Of a DNA stretch of 10,006 nucleotides, positions 1,505 to 10,006 are shown piece by piece. The stretch lies in the NCBI GenBank assembly GCA_012513515.1, contig JAAZCA010000011.1, forward strand, positions 1-10,006, written 5' to 3'. Each line of letters opens with the position of its first letter. Position 1 is the stretch's first letter. The position numbers and the translations under genes are program-made. This DNA is from Myxococcales bacterium (lineage in GTDB: Bacteria; UBA10199; 2-02-FULL-44-16; JAAZCA01). The notes beneath the pieces were generated by a model. That model had not been told where the DNA came from, did not search any database, and worked only from the letters and a program-made list of their open reading frames with translations.

Positions 1505-2140
1505 ATGGGTATTTTTAGAAAATTTGTTTTTTTGACATGCCTGTTTTTTTTCATGACAATTTCCTCTTCAGCGGCAGATGGAGGAACAAATGCAGTAACA
1601 TCAAAAGCATTATCTATATCTATCAATAATGAGGTAAATATAACAGTACCTGTCCCTGAATTGAGAAGCCAACCAGGTTTTGGCAGTCTCGACCACACTG
1701 CTATCGAAACGCTGGGCATCGATTACGCTCGGCTGCATGAGCTGCGTAAGATATATTGCATTGTAAATCCTGATCACTGCGTGGTCGATTGCGAAAAAAA
1801 TCCAGATGCCGATGAGTGTGACAAGGATGGTGACGGAATTATAAACAAGGATGATTCCTGCCCCGACGAGGCTGAAGTTTACGATATCGATGGTGAGACG
1901 CCGGTGGATGGGGTTTTGGATGGGTGTCCGACGGAGATCGGCACTTCTGATTCAGTTGACCCAGCTGAAAATTTATCTGCGCAGATGTCCGAAGGGGGCG
2001 CCTGTACGCTGATCAGATCGGAGAATGGTTTTAATTTTATAGCGATCCTGCTTTTATCTTCCCTTCTCCTGCCACTTTTCATTAGCCGTCTCTCGGCCGT
2101 TAAAATTAGAAGTCGCATTAGGAGAGATCTTAAAAAATAA
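1505..2140 (+). CDS. secreted protein with one TSP3-type repeat and Cys-type C-terminal sorting tail
   Basis: A 211-residue exported protein not assigned to a named family. Residues 1-24 form a signal peptide: basic MGIFRK, a Phe/Leu-rich core, and probable cleavage at SSA/ADG. Residues 25-90 are a region of unknown function. Cys85, 92 and 96 precede a single calcium-type loop, DKDGDGIINKDD (106-117) followed by SCP, the core of a thrombospondin type 3 repeat. A second, looser acidic stretch (127-141) ends in DGCP. The tail reads EGGACTLIR (163-171), then a hydrophobic helix (about 176-194) and a long basic end (KIRSRIRRDLKK). That layout matches the two following genes and suggests sorting by an intramembrane protease acting near Cys167. 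AGGAGG at 1493-1498 lies 6 nt before the ATG and fixes the start. It lacks the GCCGATAA promoter box of its two neighbours. Confidence 0.75.
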   Translation: MGIFRKFVFLTCLFFFMTISSSAADGGTNAVTSKALSISINNEVNITVPVPELRSQPGFGSLDHTAIETLGIDYARLHELRKIYCIVNPDHCVVDCEKNPDADECDKDGDGIINKDDSCPDEAEVYDIDGETPVDGVLDGCPTEIGTSDSVDPAENLSAQMSEGGACTLIRSENGFNFIAILLLSSLLLPLFISRLSAVKIRSRIRRDLKK

Positions 2141-2349
2141 CGTAAATCACACCTTCTAAAAACATGCTGCATGATGTTGCCTGCCTCGGAAAATTTTTGA
2201 GTCTGGAACGAGCTTCATTTCTAAACCGTATCGATCCACCATCTCCAATAATATCAATTTTATAACAATCCGGTGGCAGAATTGTGGGGATTATTTTTTC
2301 CTCCGCAATTAATCAAATAAAGTCAGATATTTACAGTATTAAAAAGCTA
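2141..2349. other. non-coding gap between the first two TSP3 genes
   Basis: The 306-bp gap before the next start codon holds no plausible gene. Seen in it: a short perfect palindrome CATGC-T-GCATG shortly after the stop codon, a weak terminator candidate (2265-2299), and an AT-rich run leading into the promoter at 2350-2376. The rest shows nothing I can assign. Confidence 0.5.
2265..2299 (+). terminator. weak candidate terminator after the first TSP3 gene
   Basis: AATCC (2267-2271) can pair with GGATT (2288-2292), directly followed by A and six T residues (2294-2299). A competing stem, ACAAT (2265-2269) with ATTGT (2281-2285), overlaps it. The stem is short and the loop long, so only the T tract argues for termination. 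Confidence 0.28.
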
Positions 2350-2376
2350 GCAACCTTTCTCTAAAATTGCCGATAA
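2350..2376 (+). promoter_or_regulatory. sigma-28-like promoter of the second TSP3 gene
   Basis: GCCGATAA (2369-2376) is identical to the classical -10 element of FliA/sigma-28 promoters (consensus TAAA-N15-GCCGATAA). At the matching -35 place stands GCAA(C) (2350-2354), two of four matches. The gene 3 promoter has the same GCAAC-N14-GCCGATAA layout. The box lies 70 nt before the ATG. Downstream, the leader can form TGGAA-ggggtt-TTCCA (2383-2398) and GCTC-gggg-GAGC (2411-2422). Confidence 0.5.
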
Positions 2377-2446
2377 CTACAGTGGAAGGGGTTTTCCAAA
2401 CTACGGATATGCTCGGGGGAGCGTGACATAAAGAAGGAGCTCGGTC

Positions 2447-3499
2447 ATGAAGAAGTTATCCGCCATCTTTATAATAACCGCCGGTTTTCTCATCTCTACA
2501 GCCGCTTTTGCCCAAACCCAACTGTCAGGCAGTGCTGTCACCCAGCCGCGGCATATATACCTCCCGTCTAGGACTGATTTTACCACCATACCGCGCCATG
2601 GATACTCAATGGATATGCCCGATCTTGCTCCTATCACCTTGCATGCATACCTAGGGGATAGCGCTGAAATCTCATGTATCGGCGAGGAAAGAAATAAGTA
2701 CGCATGTGAATTCGTTGCGATATTTGACCTGGCGAAAACAATATCAAAGATGCATTACGATAATCTTTCCAAGAGCATGAGTGAGTATAGCAAGAAATTC
2801 CTCCTCTTCGATGCCTCCGGGGCTGAGCTTGAATCCCAGGATGTCGAATGTTTTGATAATGGCAAGGGCGTGATCTCCTGCGAAATAGATCTCGACAAGT
2901 ATATGAGCAATGCCGGAGGAGTTGCCCCACAATTTCTAAGCGCGACTGGCAGGGTACAGATAGCCATGCCGGAAAGCGTTCTCTCCTATAATAGCCCGAA
3001 AGTTTCACTTTCCCGCGCAAAGATAAATCTTGGGGAGGATTCCGATGGAGATGGCATCCCCGATGTGATCGATAATTGTCCCAACTATCCGAATGCTGCT
3101 CAGCGCGATTTCGACGGGGATGGAGTTGGAGATCTGTGCGACAACTGCATGATAGTTTTCAATCCGGATCAAAAGGATTCCGATGACGATGGGTACGGCG
3201 ACGCGTGTATGAAGGATTACGACGGCGATGGCATCCCGGACAGCGAGGACAACTGTCGCATAGTTGCGAACCCGGATCAGGCCGATTCTGACGGTGATGG
3301 TCGCGGCGATGCGTGTGACCCGGCCATCCGTACCAACCCGGGAGAGAATCTGCCGCAGGTTCCCGGCTCGTATTTGATACCAGGAGATGGCAGCTGCACG
3401 CTTGTTGCCTCTGCCGGTGGAGCCTCGACCCCTTCGATCGCTTTGGCGCTGATGCTTATCCCGATGGCAATTACCGCTATAAGTAGGCGTAAAGAATAG
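2447..3499 (+). CDS. secreted TSP3-repeat protein with Cys-type C-terminal sorting tail
   Basis: 350 residues. A signal peptide (1-22) ends in a clear AFA/QTQ cleavage site. Residues 23-195 form an unrecognised domain with four cysteines (77, 87, 135, 145) and strand-like character. Residues 197-292 are TSP3-type calcium repeats: [54 protein letters not shown] and [11 protein letters not shown], in the standard alternating C- and N-type order. A short linker with PGENLPQ follows, then GDGSCTLV (313-320, Cys317), a hydrophobic helix (about 330-345) and SRRKE. Such repeats form rigid calcium-filled stalks in extracellular or outer-membrane proteins. The final tail suggests processing and anchoring at the Cys. 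AAGGAG at 2434-2439 lies 7 nt before the ATG. The promoter is sigma-28-like. The C-terminal half is clearly paralogous to the next gene; the N-terminal domain is not. Confidence 0.82.
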
Positions 3500-3555
3500 T
3501 ATTTACCGATAAAAGTGGGCTCCTTTGCCTTCCCATGAACGTCAACAAAAACGCC

Positions 3556-3582
3556 GCAACAAATTTGCGCTTATGCCGATAA
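3556..3582 (+). promoter_or_regulatory. sigma-28-like promoter of the third TSP3 gene
   Basis: GCCGATAA (3575-3582) with GCAAC (3556-3560) exactly 14 nt before it gives the same arrangement as at 2350-2376. The intervening bases are unrelated, which argues for a functional pair of elements over simple duplication. The box ends 66 nt before the ATG. As in gene 2, a small hairpin presenting GGGG in its loop follows: TCGT (3583-3586) with ACGA (3596-3599). Confidence 0.5.
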
Positions 3583-3648
3583 TCGTGTAGGGGATACGAC
3601 GCTTGGGTGTCCTGCCCCTGTTTGGGATAGTTGGCAAAGGGAGCTCTT

Positions 3649-4464
3649 ATGACAAAAATTTTGAGGCCTTCAATTTTTATCTCGGCGTTGGCTTTGGCCA
3701 CGCTTTTTGTGTCAGGCATAGCCCACGCCTGTTTCTTCGATTTTAATGGAACTCAGATTCAAGATTCCGATTGCGATGGTTACGCTGATCCTATCGAAGG
3801 GCTTCCGGAGGGCGTGCCGGTAGACAATTGTCCTCTGGTGCCAAATGGCGATTGTTATGCTGATCCATGGCACTGCAATGCAGATGGAAGCTACGATGGG
3901 AACGATCCCGATTCCTTGAGCGAGGCAGCGTTTCGAGGCGGATTCCAGATGGACTGGAACAGAAACGGAATAGGGGACGCGTGCGAGGATTCCGACGGCG
4001 ACGGTGTCCTGGATTATATCGACAACTGCAAGGCTGTCCCAAATCCAAATCAGGATCCCGGATATTGTCATGATACCGACAACGATGGGTTCGATGATGC
4101 GGCCGATAATTGTCCCACGGTTTATAATCCAACGCAAAACGATAGCGACGGAGACGGAGTCGGCGATGCCTGCGATAACTGCATACTGATCTATAATCCC
4201 GACCAGGCCGACTCTGATGGAGATAAGGTGGGGGATGCTTGTCCTCCATCGTTAAGCGGAGGAGGCGGAGGTGGAGGAACTCCCGGAGGCAGTACATTTC
4301 CTCCAGGGGCATCGAATGGCTTCTATCTCGGTCCCGATCGGACGAAGGGAAATGGCGGATGCAGCATGATGGCTGGCGGAGCCGGATCTTCCTCCGGAAT
4401 TCTGGCAATGATATCGCTTGCCGCGAGCGTTCTTATCTTCAGGCGTTCGAATAAAAACCGATAA
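3649..4464 (+). CDS. secreted TSP3-repeat protein with Gly-rich linker and Cys-type C-terminal sorting tail
   Basis: 271 residues from the ATG at 3649, chosen over an in-frame TTG at 3631 because AAGGGAG (3637-3643) sits 5 nt before it. The signal peptide (1-27) ends AHA/CFF; the cysteine at +1 lacks a proper lipobox, so it is read as signal peptidase I cleavage. TSP3-type repeats fill residues 39-198: DSDCDGYADPIE, NRNGIGDACEDSDGDG, DTDNDGFDDAADNCP, DSDGDGVGDACDNC and DSDGDKVGDAC. The first repeat is separated from the rest by about 50 residues (51-102). A run of seven glycines begins a flexible linker (204-220). The tail is GNGGCSMMAGG (234-244, Cys238), a hydrophobic helix (about 250-264) and RRSNKNR. 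The protein is almost wholly a calcium-binding stalk, with no separate head domain seen. It is likely co-regulated with the preceding gene through the shared promoter type. Confidence 0.82.
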   Translation: MTKILRPSIFISALALATLFVSGIAHACFFDFNGTQIQDSDCDGYADPIEGLPEGVPVDNCPLVPNGDCYADPWHCNADGSYDGNDPDSLSEAAFRGGFQMDWNRNGIGDACEDSDGDGVLDYIDNCKAVPNPNQDPGYCHDTDNDGFDDAADNCPTVYNPTQNDSDGDGVGDACDNCILIYNPDQADSDGDKVGDACPPSLSGGGGGGGTPGGSTFPPGASNGFYLGPDRTKGNGGCSMMAGGAGSSSGILAMISLAASVLIFRRSNKNR

Positions 4465-9459: not shown

Positions 9460-9708
9460 ATGCATTTCGTTTATGTGTTAAAGAGTAAGAGGGATTCAAG
9501 GCATTATATCGGCGTAACTGCTGATCTTGCGAGAAGAGTCGAAGATCACAATGCTGGAAAAGTTTCCTCAACCAGCGGCAGGAGACCCTTTGAGCTGATA
9601 TATTTTGAAGAGTTTGAAAAGAAAGATATTGCAGAGAAGAGAGAACGGTTTTTCAAGACGGGTAAGGGCTTTGATACATTGAAAAATTTATTAAGGCTAC
9701 CGCGCTGA
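9460..9708 (+). CDS. small GIY-YIG nuclease-superfamily protein
   Basis: 82 residues, a complete minimal GIY-YIG domain of the short UvrC-N-terminus-like/YhbQ-like class. Visible: FVYVL (3-7, the 'GIY' strand), HYIGVT (15-20, 'YIG'), the arginine pair RR (25-26) after DLA, EDHNAGK (28-34), RRPFELIYFE (41-50), and RERFFKTGKG (61-70) with the expected catalytic Glu62 in an R-E-x-x-x-K context. Members are predicted metal-dependent DNA nucleases. Short forms are abundant in uncultured lineages, and their roles are mostly unknown. The ATG has no good Shine-Dalgarno sequence; the nearest G run belongs to the hairpin 17 nt upstream. It lies between that hairpin and the 171-bp hairpin array that starts 15 nt after its stop, so a link with the repeats is likely but unproven. 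Confidence 0.85.
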   Translation: MHFVYVLKSKRDSRHYIGVTADLARRVEDHNAGKVSSTSGRRPFELIYFEEFEKKDIAEKRERFFKTGKGFDTLKNLLRLPR

Positions 9709-9722
9709 ATCTTGTTGGATAA

Positions 9723-10006
9723 TGTGCCCCCCACTAATACTTTGGGGGGCTGAACCCACCGGCGATTTAGTGGTGGGCTCCCCCGTATAAATAGCGAGGG
9801 GTGGCCCCACATTAAGACGTTGTGGGGTACGGGGCCCCACCAACGGTTTAGTGGTGGGGGAGTTGTTTCCTTTGAAAATATTACGGCTTTTGTTGTGCCC
9901 CCCACTAATACTTTGGGGGGCTGAACCCGCCGGCGATTTAGTGGTGGGCTCCCCCGTATAAATAGCGAGGGGTGGCCCCACATTAAGACGTTGTGGGGTA
10001 CGGGGC
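9723..10006 (+). repeat. tandem array of C-rich/G-rich hairpins, 171-bp period, cut by the window end
   Basis: Bases 9723-9835 recur at 9894-10006 with one difference (A9758 against G9929), giving a 171-bp period. One unit holds five stem-loops. H1: GCCCCCC (9726-9732) with GGGGGGC (9744-9750). H2: CCCACC (9755-9760) with GGTGGG (9772-9777). H3, weaker: CCCC (9781-9784) with GGGG (9798-9801). H4: CCCCAC (9805-9810) with GTGGGG (9822-9827). H5: CCCCACC (9835-9841) with GGTGGGG (9853-9859). Loops of H1, H2, H4 and H5 are each exactly 11 nt. A less structured spacer (9861-9893) separates the units. The second copy repeats H1-H4 and is cut at H5. No protein-coding signal is convincing on either strand. 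Not a CRISPR: no short repeats with unique spacers. Confidence 0.85.

Follow-up and report, generated by a model that had tools for sequence, protein, structure and literature searches.

What are the hairpins crowded at the 3′ end of this stretch of DNA, and how did they come to stand in tandem beside a nuclease gene? The best-known small palindromic repeats are those of cultured bacteria, which carry a tag and are accompanied by a RAYT transposase. The stretch analyzed here (the window) is the entire contig C11, 10,006 nt long, of a 1.79-Mb genome in 42 contigs; a sequence-only reading had proposed for its hairpins a structured RNA, a protein-binding array, or a repeat spread by the neighboring nuclease. 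Our analysis points instead, with a probability of roughly 0.7, to a new family of loop-tagged, REP/RPE-like palindromes, here duplicated in tandem along with the 3′ end of a GIY-YIG gene that is associated with a tRNA.

Structure of the array

The features that bear on this question are the following (CM, covariance model).

9460..9708, + strand: GIY-YIG nuclease ORF, 82 aa, a stand-alone domain (Pfam PF01541, E 9e-16)
9723..9893, + strand: array unit 1, 171 nt, h1(+) h2(-) h3 h4(+) h5(-) plus spacer
9726..9750, + strand: h1, GCCCCCC-actaatacttt-GGGGGGC, loop ACTAATACTTT, element forward; CM 39.5 bits (in training set)
9754..9778, - strand: h2, CCCACC-ggcgatttagt-GGTGGG, minus-strand loop ACTAAATCGCC, element reverse; CM 33.3 bits (in training set)
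9780..9801, no strand assigned: h3, CCCC(C)-gtataaatagcga-GGGG, also drawn CCCCC-GTATAAATAGCGA-GGGG; from sequence and fold
9804..9828, + strand: h4, GCCCCAC-attaagacgtt-GTGGGGT, loop ATTAAGACGTT, element forward; CM 33 bits (in training set)
9835..9859, - strand: h5, CCCCACC-aacggtttagt-GGTGGGG, minus-strand loop ACTAAACCGTT; CM 38.4 bits (in training set)
9861..9893, + strand: inter-unit spacer, TTGAAAA...TATTACGGCT, resembling a diverged, shortened copy of the GIY-YIG gene 3′ end
9894..10006, + strand: array unit 2, truncated where the contig stops and apparently continuing on contig C31 to tRNA-Ser(GCU)
9897..9921, + strand: h1 of unit 2, covariance-model match
9925..9949, - strand: h2 of unit 2, covariance-model match, one base unlike unit 1
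9975..9999, + strand: h4 of unit 2, covariance-model match

Comparison of the window with itself places positions 9723-9835 again at 9894-10006, as a direct repeat of 99% identity and a spacing of 171 nt; this bears out the near-perfect 171-bp repeat, continuing past the window, that had been described from the letters. The contig ends inside unit 2, and the array runs off it with at least two copies of the unit. Five hairpins per unit, four of them with loops of exactly 11 nt, likewise hold up. Tandem Repeats Finder, run on the window, did not report the array, probably because just 1.7 units are present.

It is extremely improbable that the array is an assembly artefact or a chance run of GC-rich hairpins. 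The contig does end within the repeat, and the assembly is fragmented and of metagenome type; however, the two unit copies are separated by a single base (CCCACC vs CCCGCC) and so are no simple assembly duplication. Copies in a second array of the same genome differ too, and both contig ends fit the arrangement in another genome of the class (G035, below). Against chance hairpins stands an exact-pattern scan, described below, that limits the pattern to five named groups.

Folding of the unit is stronger than that of shuffled sequences, both as RNA (-82.7 kcal/mol, z -4.3) and as DNA (z -3.6). Because the elements alternate in orientation, the best RNA fold merges the five hairpins into a single long one, with h1 paired to h5 and h2 to h4; h3, at the center of this unit-long palindrome, is not recognizable as a family member. 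Regularly spaced palindromes of alternating orientation, here h1(+) h2(-) h4(+) h5(-) within 171 nt, are also the arrangement that characterizes a BIME.

A scan of the window against Rfam 15 gave no match above gathering score. No T-run follows any of the five hairpins, and copies precede tRNA genes and start codons, which is inconsistent with intrinsic terminators; nor does the array resemble a CRISPR, as the whole 171-nt unit repeats with no unique spacers and the window ORFs read as genes of other kinds. The sequence-only reading was right to recognize in it neither a terminator, nor a CRISPR, nor a known REP family.

Two further features of the window lie outside the array. Positions 1505-4464 encode three adjacent small proteins that look secreted and carry repeats of a calcium-type motif, DxDGDGxxDxxDNCP. 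A palindrome of ~70 nt (GTAGTAGCCAAGACTT...AAGTCTTGGCTACTAC) occupies positions 64-133, its left arm incomplete, and is found also 3′ of tRNA-Ser on contig C31 (L004, about 9715-9792).

A conserved loop and a covarying stem

The hairpins had been described as related by shape more than by sequence. This is wrong once h2 and h5 are reverse-complemented: after re-orientation the loops of h1, h2, h4, and h5 agree on the consensus A(C/T)TAA-N-N-C-N-T-T, that is, A(C/T)TAAANCNTT, and h2 and h5 are the same element as h1 and h4 on the opposite strand. The element is ~25 bp long and consists of a GC-rich stem of 6-7 bp, variable yet complementary, around a conserved 11-nt loop (for example, GCCCGCC-ACTAAANCNTT-GGCGGGC).

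Standard pairs fill 96.3% of the pair cells over 35 distinct copies, and six of the seven pairs show changes on both sides. The covariation score, computed over loci that were partly picked by a covariance model that includes the stem, is 0.371 vs 0.147 in shuffled data (0/500), and slid pairings reach at most 0.076. These data support selection on pairing without independently proving it; template-switch correction of palindromes could produce the same stem pattern.

Distribution across genomes

The sequence-only reading had called for a search of this and related genomes and for a covariance model. Both were carried out, and the element recurs well beyond this one locus. Within its own genome, a pattern search returned 23 forward and 21 reverse matches, vs 5 and 6 for the reversed control, though many of the weak matches represent a different repeat, CCCCGATTAAAGCACTCGGGG. 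The covariance model, trained on 11 copies with the window's own hairpins among them, detected the element in 20 of the 46 genomes of the class, which are mostly fragmented assemblies. G033 has the most copies among them, with about 50 matches, while G023 and G042, from the same family, have 3 and 1. An exact IUPAC scan of about 85,000 species identified 41 stretches, confined to Omnitrophota, Elusimicrobiota, Desantisbacteria, Deltaproteobacteria-like MAGs, and one Gracilibacteria; fewer than one match would be expected by chance, as estimated from base counting. The same scan gave no match in viral contigs. Most copies elsewhere are single hairpins, and Elusimicrobiota also hold pairs in opposite orientation (e.g., L175 in HisH). 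No description of the family was found in the open-access literature, subscription papers falling mostly outside that coverage.

Another dispersed repeat of the window's genome, GGATCCCCGATTAAAGCACTCGGGGATGAC, is present in over a dozen near-identical copies (e.g., C5:13298, C8:17997, C29:67234); its loop likewise measures 11 nt if drawn with a CCCCG stem.

Genomic positions of the copies

In G033, nine copies precede a detected tRNA by 20-75 nt, each in the sense of the tRNA, and most are followed by another hairpin that reaches to tRNA +1. A general rule by which hairpins abut +1 at all tRNAs is unsupported; the loose test for it fires at 30% of random positions. About sixteen G033 copies sit just 5′ of a Shine-Dalgarno site, several of them directly after the preceding stop codon; the housekeeping genes recognized from sequence among those they precede are rplL, dnaN, recA, gdh, and peroxiredoxin. 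Beside start codons in this genome, 20 copies are sense vs 4 antisense. One G033 leader module, in which the element hairpin is followed by GTAAGAACGCCTAA...TTAAGGCGTTCTAACGGAGG and ends in the Shine-Dalgarno site, is common to at least six unrelated genes (L136, L139, L141, L142, L215, L216).

Copies are also found within stable RNA and protein genes. In RNase P RNA, G033 has a copy in helix P3, G002 one in the P12 region, and G040 one in a 3′ peripheral part of the molecule; in the sister genomes G042 and G023, P3 is short and lacks the copy seen in G033. A further copy makes up one helix of a group I intron, and another lies in a 23S-5S rRNA spacer. The element is read in frame in LepA, HisH, MoeA, and NuoN; the homologue of solved structure 2ywe has a gap at the hairpin peptide of LepA, and 4gud, likewise solved, has one at that of HisH. 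The element runs antisense to NuoN and to the RNase P gene of G040, and in G035 its orientation is mixed, as in the window array. Identical flanks recur in G033 (ATAAGAATGGAGG several times), which suggests that a longer module was copied.

One account of these positions is that the element is primarily a functional RNA: a leader stem-loop whose loop is recognized by a protein or an RNA and which protects or processes transcripts, its tRNA and mRNA placements being regulatory. Loop and stem structure are conserved, as this would require, and in G033 the copies stand sense, just before the Shine-Dalgarno sites of housekeeping genes or at the above distance before tRNAs, often with the second hairpin ending at tRNA +1. 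A leader role is, however, impossible for the copies in LepA, HisH, NuoN, RNase P RNA, and the group I intron; the mixed orientation in the window array and in G035, like the antisense copies in NuoN and the G040 RNase P gene, does not fit it; and placement is not conserved, given the 3 and 1 matches in G023 and G042. We regard a primary RNA function as a possibility well behind that of a mobile palindrome family. The strong sense orientation in G033 is nevertheless unexpected for a purely neutral DNA insert and counts against our preferred reading, as do the recurring identical flanks in that genome. Because of this orientation in transcript leaders, a structured RNA is retained as a possible secondary role, which may represent a later use of the element.

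The far end of the array and GIY-YIG genes

The contig extension that had been proposed reveals the far end of the array. Contig C31 of the same genome starts inside a unit, shares 77 nt with it, and then runs straight into tRNA-Ser(GCU), where the 3′ arm of the last h5 copy ends on nucleotide +1 of the tRNA; the units still number at least two. From the shared sequence we infer the C11-C31 join and with it the order GIY-YIG, hairpin units, tRNA-Ser. The closest relative in the class of the window GIY-YIG protein (67%, in G035) is likewise encoded in the order GIY-YIG, hairpins, tRNA-Ser(GCU), and the hairpins there also reach tRNA-Ser(UGA) on the other side.

An independent array in the window's own genome comprises three units of 143 nt directly before tRNA-Ser(CGA), and part of its unit reads as a GIY-YIG C-terminus (MKCERFLKTGEGRKVVENLLKE). 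In the window array, local alignment of the spacer (9861..9893) with the 3′ end of the window GIY-YIG gene gives a shuffle p of about 0.002-0.003. This similarity is modest by itself, and the second array strengthens the case that the spacer may derive from the gene.

Proximity to tRNA genes is common among GIY-YIG loci of the class: for about 15 of 30, a tRNA or tmRNA is no more than 300 nt away, and upstream there is often an incomplete copy of that tRNA comprising its 5′ part. A partial tRNA-Ser copy 5′ of the window GIY-YIG gene, such as many relatives have, was looked for and is absent. The tRNA-adjacent loci with a partial copy of the same tRNA are L075, L078, L080, L082, L083, L087, L088, L095, L096, and L097; in L082, the copy corresponds to tRNA-Gln 1-55 at 100%. 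Partial tRNA copies near GIY-YIG genes often carry small inserted hairpins. In G003, helix P3 of RNase P RNA is extended, with arms TGAGCACTCAACATATATTTCAGGA / TCCTGAAATATATGTTGAGTGCTCG, and its loop contains a GIY-YIG ORF (L318, G003:C8, reverse complement about 1210-1560); other GAGCACTCAAC palindromes, without an ORF, occur elsewhere in the same RNase P RNA gene.

The sequence-only reading had suggested a repeat spread by the neighboring nuclease. In its fullest form, hairpin-flanked nuclease genes would be autonomous and the dispersed hairpins nonautonomous, both homing into structured RNA genes. The arrangement of GIY-YIG, hairpins, and tRNA-Ser in the window and in G035 is what such mobilization would predict, as are the frequent proximity of GIY-YIG genes to tRNA or tmRNA with partial 5′ tRNA copies and the G003 ORF within a P3-loop palindrome whose ORF-less relatives sit elsewhere in that gene. 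A strong flanking hairpin on at least one side is also commoner at GIY-YIG genes (12/30) than at control genes (9/60). For hairpins on both sides, however, enrichment is not clear (4/30 vs 3/60), and a GIY-YIG gene is present in just 2 of 133 hairpin-bearing loci, some of which overlap. Among the 46 genomes, nuclease and hairpin occur together little more often than expected (11 genomes with both, 8.3 expected), and G033, the genome richest in copies, has no close GIY-YIG relative. As a general rule, spread by the nuclease is thus unsupported, and we consider it unlikely that GIY-YIG enzymes mobilize the element.

Comparison with known palindromic repeats

REPs are comparable to the element in size, palindromy, alternating orientation, intragenic copies, and stem covariation (PMC3733652, PMC2817692), a match that would favor a conventional REP/BIME family spread by a RAYT (Y1) transposase; Y1 transposases are present in 38 of the 46 class genomes. 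Like GTAG REPs and BIMEs, the element belongs to the class of 20-40 bp palindromes with compensatory stem changes and intragenic copies, and its opposite-orientation dimers can fold as one larger structure. Unlike them, it lacks the GTAG tetranucleotide that tags one foot of such palindromes and a flanked RAYT gene, its loop is conserved, and many of its copies lie at stable RNA genes. GTAG, CGTC, or their complements occur within 6 nt of the stem in just 2 of 88 distinct copies, the conserved part being the loop and not a tag; none of the 22 Y1 loci examined carries the element within the stretches covered; and G004, G039, and G040, all incomplete genomes, carry the hairpin with no Y1 gene detected. 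Membership in a RAYT-spread family was rejected for the missing tag and the missing flanking hairpins at Y1 genes, and we consider it very unlikely.

A second comparison is with the CGTC REP or Rickettsia palindromic element (RPE), which is defined by a CGTC tag, a stem of 8-9 bp, and a loop of 4-5 nt (PMC3733652); the element does not show this combination. RPEs are palindromes that lie between genes and also in frame within protein genes, leaving the frame unbroken (PMC3767692, PMC3733652). The element resembles them in being both intergenic and in frame inside protein genes, with in-frame insertions at sites missing from homologues (LepA vs 2ywe, HisH vs 4gud). RPEs are 100-150 bp long, CGTC-tagged, with 4-5 nt loops, and belong to other hosts, whereas the element is 25 bp long, tagless, and has a conserved 11-nt loop. 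Another parallel is the repetitive hairpin-forming elements (RHE) of sponge mitochondria, which reportedly invaded genomes more than once (PMC2800124). RHE and the element are alike in being families of hairpin-forming repeats; their genomes are unrelated.

A model for the array and its implications

Taken as a family, the element looks like a small mobile repeat that probably persists through tolerated insertions. Transposition, excision, and target-site duplication were not seen for any of the copies, and no spreading enzyme was found. The element would insert, or be copied, where an extra stem-loop does little harm. Such sites include positions directly 5′ of tRNA genes, where the leader is removed by RNase P, and peripheral helices of RNase P RNA, as well as intergenic gaps just before Shine-Dalgarno sites and, in frame, surface loops of proteins. 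In the window, four copies in alternating orientation would have filled the leader of tRNA-Ser(GCU), and this hairpin-filled leader, with the adjacent GIY-YIG 3′ end, would then have been duplicated in tandem.

The duplication may have followed DNA cleavage by the tRNA-associated GIY-YIG nuclease, as for SegB. This free-standing GIY-YIG endonuclease of phages T4/T6 has its gene beside tRNAs, and tandem amplification of a tRNA with a truncated segB depends on it (PMC13096335). The window system is similar in its GIY-YIG gene beside a tRNA and in a tandem unit with a truncated nuclease gene (PMC13096335); it differs in lying on a bacterial chromosome with a hairpin-filled leader, and what is seen of it is gene adjacency and unit content. 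Because GIY-YIG genes and hairpins have a common niche, and given the SegB precedent, the arrays probably arose when a tRNA leader targeted by the nuclease, with dispersed hairpins already in place, was duplicated in tandem.

A broader and rather doubtful extension is a nuclease-linked hairpin class that colonizes structured RNA genes, in which GIY-YIG genes would home into tRNA, tmRNA, and RNase P RNA and the loop-tagged hairpins of several phyla would be their nonautonomous partners. In the genomes in which it occurs, the element can cause tRNA leaders, rnpB, and protein loops to be misannotated. As a family recognized by its loop, present in several uncultured phyla and with no obvious transposase, it offers a test case for the spread of tagless palindromes. 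The tandem arrays next to GIY-YIG genes raise the possibility that tRNA loci of bacteria, too, undergo the nuclease-driven amplification shown in phages.
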